Source: Parvularcula sp. (GTDB lineage Bacteria > Pseudomonadota > Alphaproteobacteria > Caulobacterales > Parvularculaceae). Taken from it: 64,000 bases of DNA. The stretch is from positions 417,936 through 481,935 of the forward strand of contig PAIP01000034.1 of the NCBI GenBank assembly GCA_002704915.1, written 5' to 3'. The position numbers and the translations under genes are program-made. The notes beneath the pieces were generated by a model. The model was not told where the DNA came from. It ran no database searches and worked only from the letters and a program-made list of their open reading frames with translations. Positions within the stretch are counted from its first letter, which is position 1; the number at the start of each line of letters is the position of its first letter. Shown here piece after piece: positions 10,921 through 20,243 of the stretch.

Positions 10921-11093
10921 GTTCGCCTCTCTACTTTCTATGCAGGGGTATCTATGCAAGCGGGCCTTCTCGCGCAAGCAGGGCCGTAAAAACGCGGCGC
11001 TCGCCTCTGAGATGGAAGCTGATGCAATTATTGCCGCGCCATTGAAAACCCGCTCTCTTTACAGCGTTATCAACCTGTCATTGATTGGCCCGC

Positions 11094-11813
11094 ATGACCG
11101 AAACGTCAACACATGGCCGCGACCATTGTTCCACTCTTGTTCGCAGGCAGGACGAAGATCGCTGGCTCGCAGCACAATATGCGAAAACGCCGCTCAAGAA
11201 GTCGCTTCTGGCCCTGGCGGCGCTCCGCATTGAGCTGCGGCGCATTCCCGCGCAGGTGAGCGCGCCCCAGCTTGGCGAGATCCGGCTGCAATGGTGGCGG
11301 GAAGGGCTCGAAGCCATTCAGGCAGGCGGTCCGCCGCGCGCTCATCCCGTTCTGGAAACGGCGGCGGCGACCATGCTCGCAGACAAGCGCTGGGCGGCGC
11401 ACATCGATGCGGCGATCGATGGGGCGGCGCGCCCGCTCTATGGGGAAGGGTTTTCCACAGCCGATGATCTCGCCGGCTGGTTCCGTGAAACCGACGGCGC
11501 CCTCGATGCGATTGGCGCGCTGATGGCCGGCGGAGATGAGGCGTTGGCTGACGCGGCGGCGAAAGCAGGTGCGGCCTTCGCCATGGCGCGCGAAGGGCGG
11601 GTGATGGCTCCTAAGCTAACGGAAGACATCGTTCCTTATGCTGAGCGTATGTATAAAGGAGCAGCGCCCGAATTGTCCAAAGCTGAGACTGAGGTTGCGC
11701 CCGCGCTGTTGCATCTTTCGCTGACGCCGGTCTATTTGCGAAAAGGCGAGCGGCGCGCGCCATTGCGCAAGCGCATGAAGCTTTTTTCAGCGATGGCATT
11801 CGCGCGCTTCTGA
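11094..11813 (+). CDS. Squalene/phytoene synthase family protein (NDUFAF6-like)
   Basis: The protein has 239 residues from the ATG at 11094; a TTG at 11085 is an in-frame alternative. It matches the short alphaproteobacterial branch of the squalene/phytoene synthase family often found downstream of secDF, with LAALRIELRRIP, LGEIRLQWWREGLE and a C-terminal LTPVYLRKGE. True phytoene synthases carry two DXXXD prenyl-diphosphate motifs; neither is evident here, which fits the NDUFAF6-like branch linked to respiratory complex I assembly in mitochondria. Involvement in carotenoid synthesis is unlikely, and no other carotenoid gene is nearby. It is convergent with the ClC gene, with 4 bp between stops. 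Confidence 0.8.
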   Translation: MTETSTHGRDHCSTLVRRQDEDRWLAAQYAKTPLKKSLLALAALRIELRRIPAQVSAPQLGEIRLQWWREGLEAIQAGGPPRAHPVLETAAATMLADKRWAAHIDAAIDGAARPLYGEGFSTADDLAGWFRETDGALDAIGALMAGGDEALADAAAKAGAAFAMAREGRVMAPKLTEDIVPYAERMYKGAAPELSKAETEVAPALLHLSLTPVYLRKGERRAPLRKRMKLFSAMAFARF

Positions 11814-11817
11814 GAAC

Positions 11818-13452
11818 TTAGGTGTGATGTTCGATATTCTCTTCAATCAGCGCCCGGTTATAGGCGGCGAGCGCTTTGACGCGTGAGAGATAGCCGACGA
11901 CCTGATTTTCGTCTGATGGATCCACGACGGGAAGGCCGTGCTCTTCAGCTTCATTCAGTTTCGCCAGCGCTTCGCCCAATGACTGGCCGGCGCCGAGGCG
12001 TTCCGCATCGGCCGGAAGCGGCGCGCCCGGCGGCATTTTCTCCATCACTTCGCGCACGCGCGTGGTCTTGAGGATGATGCCTTGGGGGCCTTCGGAAAGA
12101 TCATAGCCCCGGCGCGACAATTGCCAGTGGAAGAACGACTTGCCGCAGGTCCATTGCGTGATCAGCGTGGCAATGGCGACCGCGACCATGAGCGAGATTG
12201 TGATGCCATATTCGCCGGTCAGTTCGAACGCGATCAGCGTGGTCGAGATGGGTGCGCCGAGAATGGCGCCCGAGACCGCACCCATGCCGATCATTGCGTA
12301 ATAAACCGGACTTGCGGTCACGTCGGGGAACAGCTCGCTGAGCCCGGCGCCGAAAGCCGCGCCCATAAAGGCGCCAATCACGAGACCCGGTGAAAAGACG
12401 CCGCCGCCGAAACGGCAGGACAGCGTCACCGCCGTCGCCACGCCTTTCATCAGCACGAGGATCGCGAGCAGGTGAATTGTGTAATCGCCATTGAGGGCTT
12501 TCGTGACGGCTTCATATCCGACGCCGAAAACTTCCGGATAGAAGACGCCGATCAAACCCACAATGACGCCGCCGATAGGCGGAAGCAAAAGATAGGATAT
12601 TTTTCTTTTCTGCGCGAACTCCCGAACGCCCACCGTCATGCGTTCGACCGTTTGTAAAAACCCGGACGCGACGAGACCGCAGAATACGCCTAGAAGCGCG
12701 GCGAGCGGCACGTCAATCGTTCCGATCACGCCATATTCCGGCGGCGCGAAAGCGGGAAAGTCGCCGAGATGAATGCGCGTGATGATCGCCGCGGAGACGC
12801 TCGCCGCCGCAATAGGCCCGAAGACGGACAGGGCGTAGTTGCCGAGAATGACCTCGAGCGCGAAGAGGACGCCGGCCACGGGGGCGTTGAAGCTCGCCGA
12901 GACTGCCGCTGCTGCGCCGCACCCTAGGAGCGCCCGCCGGTGCTTCGCAGTGAAACCGAGCTTTCGATAAAGGATAGAGGCGATCGTCGCGCCGAGATGG
13001 ACGGCCGGACCCTCGCGCCCGGCGCTGCCCCCGGCGCCGATTGAGACCGCCGAGACGGTCGCCGCCGCAAGACCGGCCCGCAGCGAGATATTGCCGCCCG
13101 AAACGGCTCTCGCCTCGATAACGTCGGCCACCCCCTGGCCGCGGCCGCCGGCGAGCCATTGGAAGCGATGGGCGAGAAATAAAAGCCCGGACACGACGAA
13201 CCCGCCGATCACCGGCGCCGCCCAGGCGCGCCAGGCGGTGAGCGAGGAGGCGCCGCTCACGACGCCGCCCTCGTCCTCGCCAAAGGCCAGGCTCGATACG
13301 GCGTCGATGGCGAAGCGGAAGGCGATCACGCCATAAGCGGCGGCGATGCCGATCACGACCGCCAGAATCCATACGCGAAGCACATCGACGCCCTGCAGCC
13401 GGCGGCGAATCTTCCTGAGGGCAATAAGGATGCGAGCGATTTTCCGCGGCAT
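11818..13452 (-). CDS. ClC family chloride channel/transporter with C-terminal CBS region
   Basis: The 544-residue protein has about ten or more hydrophobic segments in residues 25-440. The ClC selectivity-filter motifs are present in order: GRGQGVADVIEA at the GSGIP position, GSAGREGPAVHLG with the gating Glu, and GGGVFSPGLVIGAFMGA. The first motif deviates from GSGIP, as in many EriC-like proteins, so Cl-/H+ exchange versus channel activity cannot be told. The last ~80 residues (TRVREVMEKMP... GLPVVDPSDENQVVGYLSR) form a CBS domain, a nucleotide-sensing regulatory module. It is a stand-alone gene divergent from glnE. Confidence 0.92.
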   Translation of the reverse strand: MPRKIARILIALRKIRRRLQGVDVLRVWILAVVIGIAAAYGVIAFRFAIDAVSSLAFGEDEGGVVSGASSLTAWRAWAAPVIGGFVVSGLLFLAHRFQWLAGGRGQGVADVIEARAVSGGNISLRAGLAAATVSAVSIGAGGSAGREGPAVHLGATIASILYRKLGFTAKHRRALLGCGAAAAVSASFNAPVAGVLFALEVILGNYALSVFGPIAAASVSAAIITRIHLGDFPAFAPPEYGVIGTIDVPLAALLGVFCGLVASGFLQTVERMTVGVREFAQKRKISYLLLPPIGGVIVGLIGVFYPEVFGVGYEAVTKALNGDYTIHLLAILVLMKGVATAVTLSCRFGGGVFSPGLVIGAFMGAAFGAGLSELFPDVTASPVYYAMIGMGAVSGAILGAPISTTLIAFELTGEYGITISLMVAVAIATLITQWTCGKSFFHWQLSRRGYDLSEGPQGIILKTTRVREVMEKMPPGAPLPADAERLGAGQSLGEALAKLNEAEEHGLPVVDPSDENQVVGYLSRVKALAAYNRALIEENIEHHT

Positions 13453-13592
13453 GATAATCGTTATAGTTAACGGATTTTGTTCATATCAGCATTAAGAGCG
13501 AAGTCTAAATGTCACGAATAGTTTAACGGCGAATTCACCCTGCTTTGCCATGATCCGCTTCGTATCCATCGATGAGACCTGCGGGGAAGTTT

Positions 13593-16412
13593 ATGGCGGC
13601 GCCGACGACGCAATCAGCACGCAATACGGCCGACAAAATCGATCCGGCGCGCGCGCCGGCGGCGCTTGAGCGCTGGCGCCGGGCCGTGGCCGAAGCTATG
13701 GGCGGTGATCCGGGCGCCCCGCTCGACAGACCCGACCGCCGCCTTTTGATGCTGCGCGTTTTTGGCGCAACCCGGCGGCTCGCAGAACTTTGCATGACGC
13801 ATCCGGCCGCAGCAGCGACGGCGCTGATCGAAGGCGCTTCGCCCGTGCTTGCCGAAGCGGCGCGCGATCTGACAGCGCTTGATCGGGGGGTCGGGGGACC
13901 TGATGCGCTTCATGCGGCGCTTGCGCCGCTGAAAAACCGCGTCGATGTCGCGATCGCCATCGCCGAAATGAGTGGCGAGTGGAGCGTCGCTGACGCCACG
14001 GCGGCGCGCGTCGACTTCGCCGAACGCATGGTGGAGACGGGGCTGCGCTGGCTAGTGCGCGCCGCCGTCAAGCGCGGCGAGCTGACGGTCGATGACCCGG
14101 ATAATTTCCTGCGCGGCGTTTTTGTCGTGGCGGGCAGCGATTTCGCCCATGAAGACCTTTCCCCCTTCGGTCCGCTGGACCTCATCATTCTTTACGATGA
14201 ACAGGCGTTTGCCGCGCCGGCGGCCCGCGGCGCCGACCGCATCTTCGTGCGCATCGGCGCCGAACTTCGTGAAGCCTTCGAGGGCAAGCCCGGCGAGTAT
14301 CCGCTTTACGGATTGAGGACGCCGATCGGTTCCGGCGTGGGCGGCGCCGGCTATGCGGACTCAGTCGCTCGCGTCAAAGCGACGGCCGCCGGTCCGCAGG
14401 CCGATACGCTGAAAATGTGGCTCGGCGCGGCGCGTGTTGTTGCGGGCGACCGCACGGCCGGCGGCGCGTTCCTTGAGGACATAGAGCAGATCGTCTGGTC
14501 CGATAATCCCATCGCCATTGAAGCGCTGCGGAGCTTCGTTGAGCAAAAAGACGCCGATCCGCGAAGCGTGTTCCGGCGGGTGGCGGGCCTGTGCCGTCTC
14601 GCCATTGGCGGATTGCGCCCGATCTTCAGGACTGCGTCCGCGCGGGAGATTTTCGACAACGCATCGCGCTCGCGCACGCTGTCCAAGGATGCGGCGCGTC
14701 GTCTCGTCGCCGGCGAAGAACTGGCGCATATCGCTGTCTCGCGCCTGCAGATAATGAAGGGCGCCCCCGTCACCAGTGTCGAACGCGAAGACGAACAGCG
14801 CGCGCTGGCGCTGCTTTGCGGCTACAGCGATTACAAGGATCTCGAAGCCGCGCTGAATGGCGCCTGCACCGATGCGGCCAACACGCTGCGCCGCCTCGCC
14901 GCCGGTCCTCAGGAGGAAATTTCGCTCTATCGTCACGGCGAAGACGAAACAGAAGGCGACGCCGACAAGCTGGAGGATCTTGGCTTCCTCAACGGACAAA
15001 GTCTCTCCGAAGCTGTCGACAACTGGGCGCGCCGCGCCGAAGCGCGCCTCGGCGGCAAGCGTTTCTCCTCCCATGCGCCGGGCCTCCTGACGGCGTTCGG
15101 CGAGACGCAGCATCCGAACGACGCCGTGCGTCTGTTCGATCAGCTTCTGGCGAACGCCAGTGAAAAATACGACGTTTTCTCGCTGGTCTCCGACGGCGCC
15201 GAGCGCCGCGACGGTCTCGTCGACGCCTTCGGGTCTTTCGGCGCGGTGATGGAGCCGCTGACCTCTTCGGAAGCCCTCGCGGAAACGTTTTTCGAATCGA
15301 CTGGCGCCGAGACGCCGCAATCGGGCAAGGAATGGCTGAGCCGTTACACGCCGCCCCCGGCGAAAGGCAAGACGGCCCTCGCCGATCTCGCCGAATGGCG
15401 CCGCGAATTGCTGGCCCGGGTCGCGTATAACGCGGCGAGCGGCTCAACGAGCTTCGACGCCGCGGTTGAGGCCTTTGAAGATATTCATATCCGTACCCTG
15501 ACGAATGTTTTCGAAACCACGCGCGATGCCGCGCCGGCGGCAGAAGCGAAAGCGGGCGCCAATATCGCGCTTCATGTTTTCGAATCCGACGGGCCGCACC
15601 TGCCGGGCGCTGCGACCCATCTCGGTTTTATCGCCGGCGAGGATCTGGGCGAGGCGGGGGAAGCGTTCGCCAAGCGCTATCTGCAAAGCCTCAGCGAAGC
15701 GGGCGAGGGCGTTTTCGCCGTCACCCCCGATGCGACGCACCGTCCGGGCGGCGTCGCGGGGCCGGTCGTGTCGGCGCTCGCCGCCTTCAAATCCTATGTT
15801 CAGTCCGAAGCCGTAGCTCATGAACAGATCATGCTGGCGCGCGGCCGCGTTATCGCCGCCGGCGACGACAAGATTGAGGAAAGCGCGCGTGACGCGCTGA
15901 GGAGCGCCATCGCCGGCGCGCGCCGCGCCGACATTCTCTTCCGCGATCTCGACCGCGCCCGCGCCCAGCGCATGCGCCGCGAGCGTCCGTCCTCCGACTG
16001 GGATATCGACCGGCTCGAAGGCGGCCGCGCCGATGTGGAGCTCGTCATCTCGACGCTGATCTACAAGCATGCGTCGGCCCATCCTTTCGTTCAGGATGTG
16101 AGCCCGGCAGAGGCGCTCGACGCCATGGCGCGCTCCGGCCTCATTTCGGAAGAAACAGCCAAGACGCTGGCCTCCGCCCGGAGCTTCTGGGCGCGGCTGC
16201 AGCTTGTGCGCGCCCTTTCCGGCTGGACCGATCCGTTAAAAGCGCCGGTGCGCCGTCGCTTTGGCGGGATTATCGCGCGGGCCGCGGGCGTTCAGAAGTT
16301 CGAGCAGGTGCGACCGATGATGCGTGGCTATGCGGATGAAGTGACGCGCAGCTATGCGCAGATCGTCCTCGGGCGCCCGTCGCTGAATGTGGCGTCGCAT
16401 GCGGCGGGCTAA
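13593..16412 (+). CDS. GlnE-family (glutamine synthetase adenylyltransferase) homologue with eroded active sites
   Basis: The start is ATG 13593, with ggggaag just upstream; ATG 13572 is an alternative. The frame is open for 939 residues, the normal GlnE length. The overall pattern matches GlnE: LERWRRAV at the start, IAIAEMSGEWSVADATAARV, a central ARVVAGDRTAGGAFLEDI and a late SDWDIDRLEGGRADVELV. The catalytic blocks are degraded. The first SDIDLI site reads FGPLDLIILY, the DLRLRP block reads YGLRTPIGSG, RGGIREIEF reads IGGLRPIF, and the second SDLDL site is unrecognisable. GlnE normally adenylylates and deadenylylates glutamine synthetase. This one is probably a pseudoenzyme or has a changed role, although the frame is intact. 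Confidence 0.8.
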   Translation: MAAPTTQSARNTADKIDPARAPAALERWRRAVAEAMGGDPGAPLDRPDRRLLMLRVFGATRRLAELCMTHPAAAATALIEGASPVLAEAARDLTALDRGVGGPDALHAALAPLKNRVDVAIAIAEMSGEWSVADATAARVDFAERMVETGLRWLVRAAVKRGELTVDDPDNFLRGVFVVAGSDFAHEDLSPFGPLDLIILYDEQAFAAPAARGADRIFVRIGAELREAFEGKPGEYPLYGLRTPIGSGVGGAGYADSVARVKATAAGPQADTLKMWLGAARVVAGDRTAGGAFLEDIEQIVWSDNPIAIEALRSFVEQKDADPRSVFRRVAGLCRLAIGGLRPIFRTASAREIFDNASRSRTLSKDAARRLVAGEELAHIAVSRLQIMKGAPVTSVEREDEQRALALLCGYSDYKDLEAALNGACTDAANTLRRLAAGPQEEISLYRHGEDETEGDADKLEDLGFLNGQSLSEAVDNWARRAEARLGGKRFSSHAPGLLTAFGETQHPNDAVRLFDQLLANASEKYDVFSLVSDGAERRDGLVDAFGSFGAVMEPLTSSEALAETFFESTGAETPQSGKEWLSRYTPPPAKGKTALADLAEWRRELLARVAYNAASGSTSFDAAVEAFEDIHIRTLTNVFETTRDAAPAAEAKAGANIALHVFESDGPHLPGAATHLGFIAGEDLGEAGEAFAKRYLQSLSEAGEGVFAVTPDATHRPGGVAGPVVSALAAFKSYVQSEAVAHEQIMLARGRVIAAGDDKIEESARDALRSAIAGARRADILFRDLDRARAQRMRRERPSSDWDIDRLEGGRADVELVISTLIYKHASAHPFVQDVSPAEALDAMARSGLISEETAKTLASARSFWARLQLVRALSGWTDPLKAPVRRRFGGIIARAAGVQKFEQVRPMMRGYADEVTRSYAQIVLGRPSLNVASHAAG

Positions 16413-16644: not shown

Positions 16645-16866
16645 CTAAGACGTCTTACTTGAAAGACGCTTCAACACATAAACCCTGATCGCCGACGCCA
16701 ATCCCGGCGGCGGGGTCTGCTTCAAACGATTGCGGTCAATGGAGTCGATCAGCGCGGGGAGGGTGCGCTTTTCCGTCTCGACGATGGCGTCGAGGGCGTC
16801 CCAGAATTCAGGCTCCAGCGCGATTGAGGTGCGGTGGCCTTTTAAGGTGATCGATCTCTTGCGCAT
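16645..16866 (-). CDS. Ribbon-helix-helix domain protein
   Basis: This 73-residue protein matches the small alphaproteobacterial ribbon-helix-helix family. It has a basic start (MRKRSITLKGHRTSIALEPE) forming the DNA-contacting strand, then FWDALDAIVETEKRTLPALI as the first helix, and a C-terminal SAIRVYVLKRL helix. Such genes often lie downstream of fumC with one or two small orphans between, as here. It is likely a DNA-binding regulator; the target is unknown. Confidence 0.8.
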   Translation of the reverse strand: MRKRSITLKGHRTSIALEPEFWDALDAIVETEKRTLPALIDSIDRNRLKQTPPPGLASAIRVYVLKRLSSKTS

Positions 16867-17109: not shown

Positions 17110-17328
17110 TTAGCTTTTGGCCCAGTTGTCGAGGCCGTGGGCGCGGATTTTCGACGTGGCGAGGGTGACGCCGTCGATGATGCCCGCCATGTGCGAGACC
17201 GCTTCGCTATCGGCGCTGGAGAGATCGGCGCCGAGGGCGTTGTAGAGCGTCTCGATATCCACATCATGCGCAAACAGGAATTGCGCGAGGAGGAGCCGGA
17301 GCTGGCTGTCGGAAGGTTTGTCGGCCAT
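17110..17328 (-). CDS. Small hypothetical protein
   Basis: The protein has 72 residues from the ATG at 17328 (MADKPSDSQLRLLLAQFLFA); the ORF's upstream 25 residues look non-coding. It is soluble, helical in appearance and acidic in the middle (DVDIETLYNALGADLSSADSE), with no cysteines or known motif. It lies between fumC and the ribbon-helix-helix gene on the same strand and is followed by a hairpin terminator. I do not recognise the family. Confidence 0.6.
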   Translation of the reverse strand: MADKPSDSQLRLLLAQFLFAHDVDIETLYNALGADLSSADSEAVSHMAGIIDGVTLATSKIRAHGLDNWAKS

Positions 17329-17460
17329 GATCTTGTCGTCCTTGTCCCAAAATGCGTCACGCGCCGGGCGCGTTCGTGGAAGATAAGGCAAGAACCGGTC
17401 CAACGCCGCCGGAAAACGGGAACAGGAGAAAAATGGCGGATAATCCCCTGAAATCCCAGC

Positions 17461-18952: not shown

Positions 18953-19450
18953 TTACTTCTTGCGGAAGGAATCGAGGCTGACGATGTCGGCCCCTTCGCC
19001 CTTGTCGGCCTCATCGTCTTCGGCTTCAGCTTCCGGCGCGTCTTGTTCCTGTGAGCGGTCGTCTTCGGCTTCGGGCGGGGCGATGTCGAAATTGACGCCG
19101 AACTGGGCGCTCGGATCGGCGAACTGGGTGACAGCGTCGAAGGGGATCTCAAGCCGTGCCTCCTTGCCTTTGAACCAGAGGGTTACGCCCACCTCGTCGT
19201 CCGTGACGGTGAGATTTTCGAACTGATGCTGGAGCACGATGGTCATCCGCTCAGGATATTGCTCTTTGAGATGATCGGGAATGGAGACGCCAGGCGCGCC
19301 GGTCAGGAACTCGATGAAGAAATGATGCTCTCCGGGCGCATCCCCGAGCTCGGCCACCAGTTTCAGGACATCGCGCATGAGAAAGCGGTAGGCGCGCTTC
19401 TGGGCTTCCTGAATGAGGTCGTTGTAATCAAGCTCGATGTCTTCCGTCAC
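18953..19450 (-). CDS. sspB: ClpXP adaptor SspB, alphaproteobacterial type
   Basis: The protein has 165 residues. The substrate-binding domain covers about residues 5-125, with YPERMTIVLQHQFENLTV and VGVTLWFKGKEARLEIPFDAVTQFADPSAQFG matching the alpha-type SspB family. A long acidic, disordered linker (about 125-150) leads to the terminal IVSLDSFRKK, the short tail that docks on the ClpX N-domain. SspB delivers ssrA-tagged proteins to ClpXP. The ssrA gene itself lies 300-650 bp further on the same strand, so tagging RNA and adaptor are neighbours. Confidence 0.92.
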   Translation of the reverse strand: MTEDIELDYNDLIQEAQKRAYRFLMRDVLKLVAELGDAPGEHHFFIEFLTGAPGVSIPDHLKEQYPERMTIVLQHQFENLTVTDDEVGVTLWFKGKEARLEIPFDAVTQFADPSAQFGVNFDIAPPEAEDDRSQEQDAPEAEAEDDEADKGEGADIVSLDSFRKK

Positions 19451-19554: not shown

Positions 19555-19790
19555 AATAAAATCCCCGGCTTCTGGTGCCCCGCGGGCGAAGGCCCGCAAT
19601 TCTCAAGAATCCCGGCGCGTGAATGCTATACCGGTAGTTAGTTTTATGGGGAATAAAGTCCCCGGCTTCTGTTGCCAGGTGCTCCCCGCGCCCGAAGGGG
19701 CGCAGATCAAAGATTCCCCGGCGCCTGCGCGCCGTAAAGATGGACGGATTTACGGGACATAAAGTCCCCGGCTTCTGTTGCCAGGCGCCG
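19555..19790. repeat. Three tandem partial repeats downstream of ssrA
   Basis: ccccggcttctgttgccagg, preceded by taaagt, occurs exactly at 19654-19679 and 19760-19785, with a diverged copy (ccccggcttctggtgcc) at 19563-19579. The spacing is about 95-106 bp. The first two units also carry a small hairpin (cgcgggcgaaggcccgc, cgcgcccgaaggggcgc). The copy nearest ssrA may form the 3' end of the coding RNA, in which case the others are duplicated ends. Confidence 0.6.
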
Positions 19791-20097
19791 GGGGGCCCCG
19801 CCTAGCCTTGGAAAGGGGCTAGGGCTTTAAAAAGCGAACTGCTCAGCCGCGTTACGCAGCGAGAGCGAGTTCTTCCGAGTAGTTGTCGTTGGCAACTATT
19901 CAGTTGTAGCCAAATAACGGAGGCAAACCGGGCGAAAACATCGTCTTTAGACGCTCGTCGATCCTATTTCGGCCCCGCCGAAGCCTCCCCCCAAAGCTTT
20001 TCGGGAGAGGGGTTTTGGTGGAGCCGCCGGGTACCGCCCCCGGGTCCGATACGGTTATTGCACGCGTCATTTATCGCCATAGCCCGCTTGCGCGAGC
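19770..20097 (-). ncRNA. ssrA: Two-piece (circularly permuted) tmRNA
   Basis: Read on the minus strand, the acceptor piece comes first and ends cggctccACCA, with its CCA at 20018-20016. A short intervening segment (20015-19977) follows. The coding piece then begins at 19976 with ggggccg, which pairs with the acceptor strand cggctcc (six Watson-Crick pairs and one G-U), followed by aggatcgacgagc, resembling the usual ggaUUCGACgg block. The tag frame at 19893-19852 encodes ANDNYSEELALAA and a UAA stop, ending in the LAA needed by ClpXP. The outer ends (19770, 20097) are estimates. A tatatt -10-like box at 20109-20104 fits a start near 20097. Confidence 0.9.
19852..19893 (-). CDS. tmRNA-encoded proteolysis tag ANDNYSEELALAA
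   Basis: Thirteen codons plus TAA lie inside the coding piece of ssrA. With the alanine carried by the tmRNA itself the appended peptide would be AANDNYSEELALAA. The AANDN start and the hydrophobic LALAA end match known alphaproteobacterial tags recognised by SspB and ClpX. Confidence 0.9.
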   Translation of the reverse strand, partial: ANDNYSEELALAA

Positions 20098-20243
20098 ACA
20101 AGAAATATAGGCTCCGGGGGTAAAGATTTAAAGACCCGTGGCCCAAAGGCCGCGAAAAAGCGCAGGAATGTCAAGATTCTGTAATATCCATGCATTAAGT
20201 GCGCATAGCATCGGCAGGCGTTTCAGGCTGGAGCCAGGCGGCT

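Follow-up and report, generated by a model that had tools for sequence, protein, structure and literature searches.

We analysed a 64,000-nucleotide stretch of DNA from Parvularcula sp. (the window), which carries a GlnE-like gene, here called pseudo-GlnE, arranged head-to-head with a CLC chloride channel gene, clcA (Table 1). The frame encodes 939 amino acids from the ATG at 13593, or 946 from an in-frame upstream ATG at 13572; the start conserved throughout the family is the ATG at 13593, the same start as in the original prediction. On the one hand, the protein belongs to the GlnE superfamily, as it matched the Pfam GlnE family (E 1.2e-16, 61 bits against a gathering score of 24) and has a GlnE fold. 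On the other hand, it scored 167 bits with the curated NCBIfam GlnE equivalog PRK14108, whose cut-off is 724, and thus lies outside that equivalog. The GlnD_UR_UTase family (PF08335) scored weakly on the C-terminal helical segment. The AlphaFold2 model had a mean pLDDT of 78 and a pTM of 0.52. In a Foldseek search with this model, the only matches at E < 1e-3 were the two E. coli GlnE half structures, 3k7d (E 3.8e-12) and 1v4a (E 3.1e-11), and the Legionella DrrA AMPylase domain (6yx5, E 5.6e-4). Farther along the window, the tmRNA gene lies close to sspB, and SspB is the adaptor that delivers tmRNA-tagged proteins.

Table 1. Features of the pseudo-GlnE locus in the window. Residue numbers are counted from the ATG at 13572.
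Feature	Residues	Position	Strand	Remarks
Short squalene/phytoene synthase family protein		11085..11813	+	Pfam E 1.5e-15; adjoins clcA; position shared by most family loci read
CLC chloride channel gene (clcA)		11818..13452	-	Pfam Voltage_CLC; conserved head-to-head neighbour by synteny
TTAA-N7-TTCA conserved upstream element		13523..13539	+	Lies between clcA and the divergent pseudo-GlnE gene
Pseudo-GlnE paralogue		13593..16412	+	Open frame; Pfam GlnE; fold match to 3k7d and 1v4a
N-terminal helical domain	63-178	13758..14105	+	Most constrained part
Dead nucleotidyltransferase fold 1	179-300	14106..14471	+	SSDxD now FGPLD; GK-loop Lys and DLRLRP lost
Dead nucleotidyltransferase fold 2	664-765	15561..15866	+	Without Asp dyad
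C-terminal helical domain	766-936	15867..16379	+	PF08335; contains WDIDRLEGGRADVELVIS
Ribbon-helix-helix domain protein		16645..16866	-	PF13467; between pseudo-GlnE and fumC
97-aa open reading frame		17110..17403	-	No Pfam match; between pseudo-GlnE and fumC
sspB		18953..19450		
Alphaproteobacterial tmRNA gene		19763..20136	-	Rfam RF01849 (251 bits); permuted tmRNA model matched as well

The catalytic motifs were compared in a joint alignment of 34 full-length paralogues and 36 canonical GlnEs. In the N-terminal half (AR), SSDxD has become xGP[LVM][DE] in the 34 paralogues, except for KPIE and APIE in two genomes, G063 and G064. The first Asp is replaced by Pro in every paralogue copy aligned, so that the SDxD dyad of the AR site is absent, and the second carboxylate is retained as D or E. 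The carboxylate of DLRLRP in this half is absent from the paralogues, and the GK loop is lost too. Both the RGGIREIEF segment and the EHRLQM..DEQTH block are missing from all 34. In the C-terminal half (AT), the Parvularculaceae copies lack both Asp residues of the dyad, and with them the SDxD motif of the AT site; DMQLRP reads DATHRP in the window copy, where the Asp aligns and the LRP context is lost. No paralogue has retained D[LM]xLRP, including its third carboxylate, in both halves. The Asp of the C-half RPGG block is retained in most copies, WDI..GG..DVEL is still present, and most members share a conserved signature of their own, [GS]DFAHEDLxPxGP. At the level of sequence, both nucleotidyltransferase active sites of pseudo-GlnE are dead. 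The original prediction had described a full-length, open GlnE-type frame in which nearly all catalytic signatures of both halves are eroded and WDI..GG..DVE is kept, and both parts were confirmed, the first by the open frame, the Pfam match and the fold, and the second by the alignment. Intact Asp dyads in both domains had been named as evidence against it, and the dyads are lost in all members aligned. The qualifier "almost every" is justified, because the second N-half carboxylate and the RPGG Asp survive.

GlnE is a textbook bifunctional enzyme by which glutamine synthetase is turned on and off. The genome of the window encodes a canonical, motif-complete GlnE at C36:341089-344049, 90 kb from pseudo-GlnE, which scored 942 bits with PRK14108. 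Therefore, the window protein is a paralogue; it is not the sole GlnE of the genome, and it does not replace the canonical enzyme in this organism. GlnD, PII and GlnA are all present, and GlnA keeps the adenylylation tyrosine (DLYDL). The original prediction had proposed a search for a second glnE, glnD, glnB and the GlnA tyrosine; a canonical GlnE, GlnD, a PII protein and the tyrosine were all found, and its idea of a different control of glutamine synthetase in this organism is unsupported.

The paralogue and canonical GlnE coexist in nearly all genomes, including six of six outside Parvularculaceae, and pseudoenzymes often regulate their active paralogue. Both points would fit a pseudo-GlnE that regulates canonical GlnE or forms a heteromer with it, for example to tune access to GlnA. 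However, where the two genes share one contig, they lie about 60-90 kb apart and form no operon. In addition, G063 and G064 (genus g17; 96 and 99% complete) keep the paralogue, at 38% identity and thus much diverged, whereas canonical GlnE was not found in these two assemblies, in which GlnD, PII and GlnA were found. We therefore consider a partnership with canonical GlnE unlikely. Downstream of the tyrosine, GlnA reads DLYELSEHE and DLYELDNAA in G063 and G064, compared with DLYDLPPEE, and such drift would be expected after a loss of adenylylation. Canonical GlnE is present in a third genome placed in this genus. Considering how far the copies of G063 and G064 have diverged, they may do something else. 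In genus g18, no GlnE-family match was found in four genomes (G067, G069, G070 and G072). GlnA is kept in G067 and G070 (both 99% complete), in which searches for PII and GlnD found neither; judging from gene content, the PII cascade appears to have been lost there.

The region upstream of pseudo-GlnE could point to a partner that has nothing to do with nitrogen control, possibly one tied to the CLC gene or to cell-cycle control. The paralogue is divergent from clcA across Parvularculaceae, and clcA lies nearby in f127, one of two other alphaproteobacterial families, f95 and f127, in which orthologues were found. The TTAA-N7-TTCA element was present in the 200 bases preceding the gene in 28 of 33 paralogues but in none of 36 canonical glnE genes, against a shuffle mean of 0.07, although the 28 occurrences are not 28 independent events because the sequences are related. 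In the window, the extended form TTAA-N7-TTCAYC has one match, with 0.13 expected. CtrA sites have the form TTAA-N7-TTAA, and the similar spacing is only a lead. On the other side, G048 keeps the paralogue with no clcA match at the site, the f95 locus read has neighbours other than clcA, and a common promoter region is no proof of a common function. Accordingly, we regard a partner outside nitrogen control as improbable. Two other candidates were rejected: no convincing box was found for a sigma-54 promoter upstream of pseudo-GlnE, and an anti-phage defence role had no PADLOC match.

Among the 62 Parvularculaceae genomes searched, 39 carry the paralogue, in four of nine genera, and it was not found in the other five. 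All frames of the full-length copies aligned are open. A named close relative, Marinicaulis flavus (now Hyphococcus luteus), has 82% identity in pseudo-GlnE. In close pairs, dN/dS was 0.05-0.16 for the paralogue, whereas the canonical GlnE of these genomes gave 0.10-0.23. The paralogue was also the more identical of the two in 98% of 351 genome pairs. The N-terminal helical domain had a mean identity of 78% in the paralogue versus 48% in canonical GlnE, and the C-terminal helical domain 73% versus 48%, each being higher in 100% of pairs. In the former catalytic cores, paralogue identity was the higher in 76% (first nucleotidyltransferase fold) and 24% (second fold) of pairs, with no consistent excess. 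Thus, constraint has shifted away from the catalytic cores and towards the helical domains at the N- and C-terminus. With purifying selection on the one side and dyads lost in all members aligned on the other, pseudo-GlnE qualifies as a pseudoenzyme, and that it is both dead and under selection is strongly supported.

Across the order, 398 genomes were searched, and the paralogue turned up in four genera, all of them Parvularculaceae. The wide searches used profiles built in this analysis on a sample of the class; beyond the orthologues of f95 and f127, the paralogue was not found in nearly all other alphaproteobacteria sampled. All dead copies grouped in a single clade (SH-aLRT 100) in a quickly built tree whose branches are long, and a more careful tree, limited to the Parvularculaceae copies, agreed (100/100). 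In f127, the loci contain the paralogue and the CLC gene together with fumC, sspB, thyA and folA-like genes. Two of these neighbours, fumC and sspB, also occur at the f95 locus of G487, and a CoA-transferase family III gene lies near the paralogue in both families. This partly shared gene order favours descent from a common ancestral locus followed by many losses, the alternative being transfer of the whole locus. A broader profile (A2) run on the whole class returned mostly other GlnEs, and among its best matches below the paralogues, 15 of 15 loci checked have two SDxD and two DxRLRP motifs. Besides its dead paralogue, G487 encodes two GlnE copies (G487:C5 and G487:C69) in which both halves match strongly. 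Spread of the paralogue on plasmids was rejected, as only four weak plasmid matches were obtained (21-28% identity). A spread to Ectothiorhodospiraceae was likewise rejected, because the single match (CAKZQS010000022.1), a metagenome contig labelled with that family, reads as chimeric, with a paralogue fragment followed by unrelated coding sequence from about base 1080.

The f95 and f127 orthologues have also lost both dyads, with Pro in place of the first Asp of each half. They retain a fuller, DxRxRPGG-like C-half block with a third Asp, which looks like an intermediate state. This Asp, or new conserved residues that took the place of the old ones (A-H-E-D-L, or the [DE] after GP), could mean that pseudo-GlnE gained a different catalytic activity. 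However, the Pro that has displaced the first N-half Asp in every aligned copy and the lost GK loop argue against this, as do the absence of the A-H-E-D-L motif from G063 and G064 and the fact that the cores are not where constraint is concentrated. A new activity is therefore unlikely. That pseudo-GlnE is a decaying duplicate heading for loss, as its missing motifs and its absence from five family genera and from nearly all other alphaproteobacteria sampled might suggest, is extremely improbable, since the frames are open, most of the proteins have a signature of their own, and neutral decay is rejected by a dN/dS below that of the working enzyme and by conservation over several genera.

Considering that both sites are dead, and that the protein is nevertheless kept and conserved more tightly than the working enzyme, its role is probably protein binding rather than catalysis. 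We think it probable that pseudo-GlnE is an ancient GlnE pseudoenzyme kept as a non-catalytic binding protein. In this reading, an ancient GlnE paralogue lost its catalytic residues, as the sequences show, and purifying selection, likewise demonstrated, keeps it as a non-catalytic protein. Pseudo-GlnE most likely binds its partner through the N- and C-terminal helical domains, as the shift of constraint suggests. The target might be found in the nitrogen-control module of its descent, PII or glutamine synthetase, for which it would serve as a decoy or scaffold, and it would not modify GlnE itself. PII or GlnA as the target is a tentative guess, and another partner is about equally likely. Against a target in this module, the divergent neighbour is a chloride channel gene, and no nitrogen genes are adjacent to pseudo-GlnE. 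It is possible, although rather unlikely, that these proteins form an undescribed ancient alphaproteobacterial regulator family, in which a GlnE-derived pseudoenzyme senses PII or glutamine synthetase, or sequesters it, and leaves it unmodified. Such a family would add to nitrogen control a second layer, non-covalent in nature, which would have outlived GlnE in the lineage of G063 and G064. The dN/dS values, the distribution and the synteny support the earlier view of a maintained but catalytically dead GlnE, and a role as binding partner or regulator, as it proposed, is the best remaining reading, although an inferred one. That an inert-looking copy is under tighter selection than working GlnE suggests that the GlnE scaffold has a function so far unrecognised. 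Automated annotation may call such proteins GlnE by domain match.

A search of open-licence papers turned up no account of a GlnE pseudoenzyme, and none is described in the part consulted of an in silico survey of AMPylating enzymes (PMC4454073). Compared with GlnE (PRK14108; 1v4a and 3k7d), pseudo-GlnE has the same length, the same succession of helical domains and two nucleotidyltransferase folds, and a residual match in sequence and fold, but it has no Asp dyad in either site, lacks the RGGIREIEF and QTH segments, and scores far under the family cut-off. With the PII uridylyltransferase GlnD, it shares the weak PF08335 match in the C-terminal helices, whereas no other GlnD domain was matched and the genome has a separate GlnD. 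The fold match to DrrA has 10% identity, and DrrA, in contrast, is an active effector enzyme. MiD49 and MiD51 are nucleotidyltransferase-fold pseudoenzymes in which the scaffold is reused for protein binding; unlike pseudo-GlnE, they are eukaryotic, belong to an unrelated subfamily and have a single fold.
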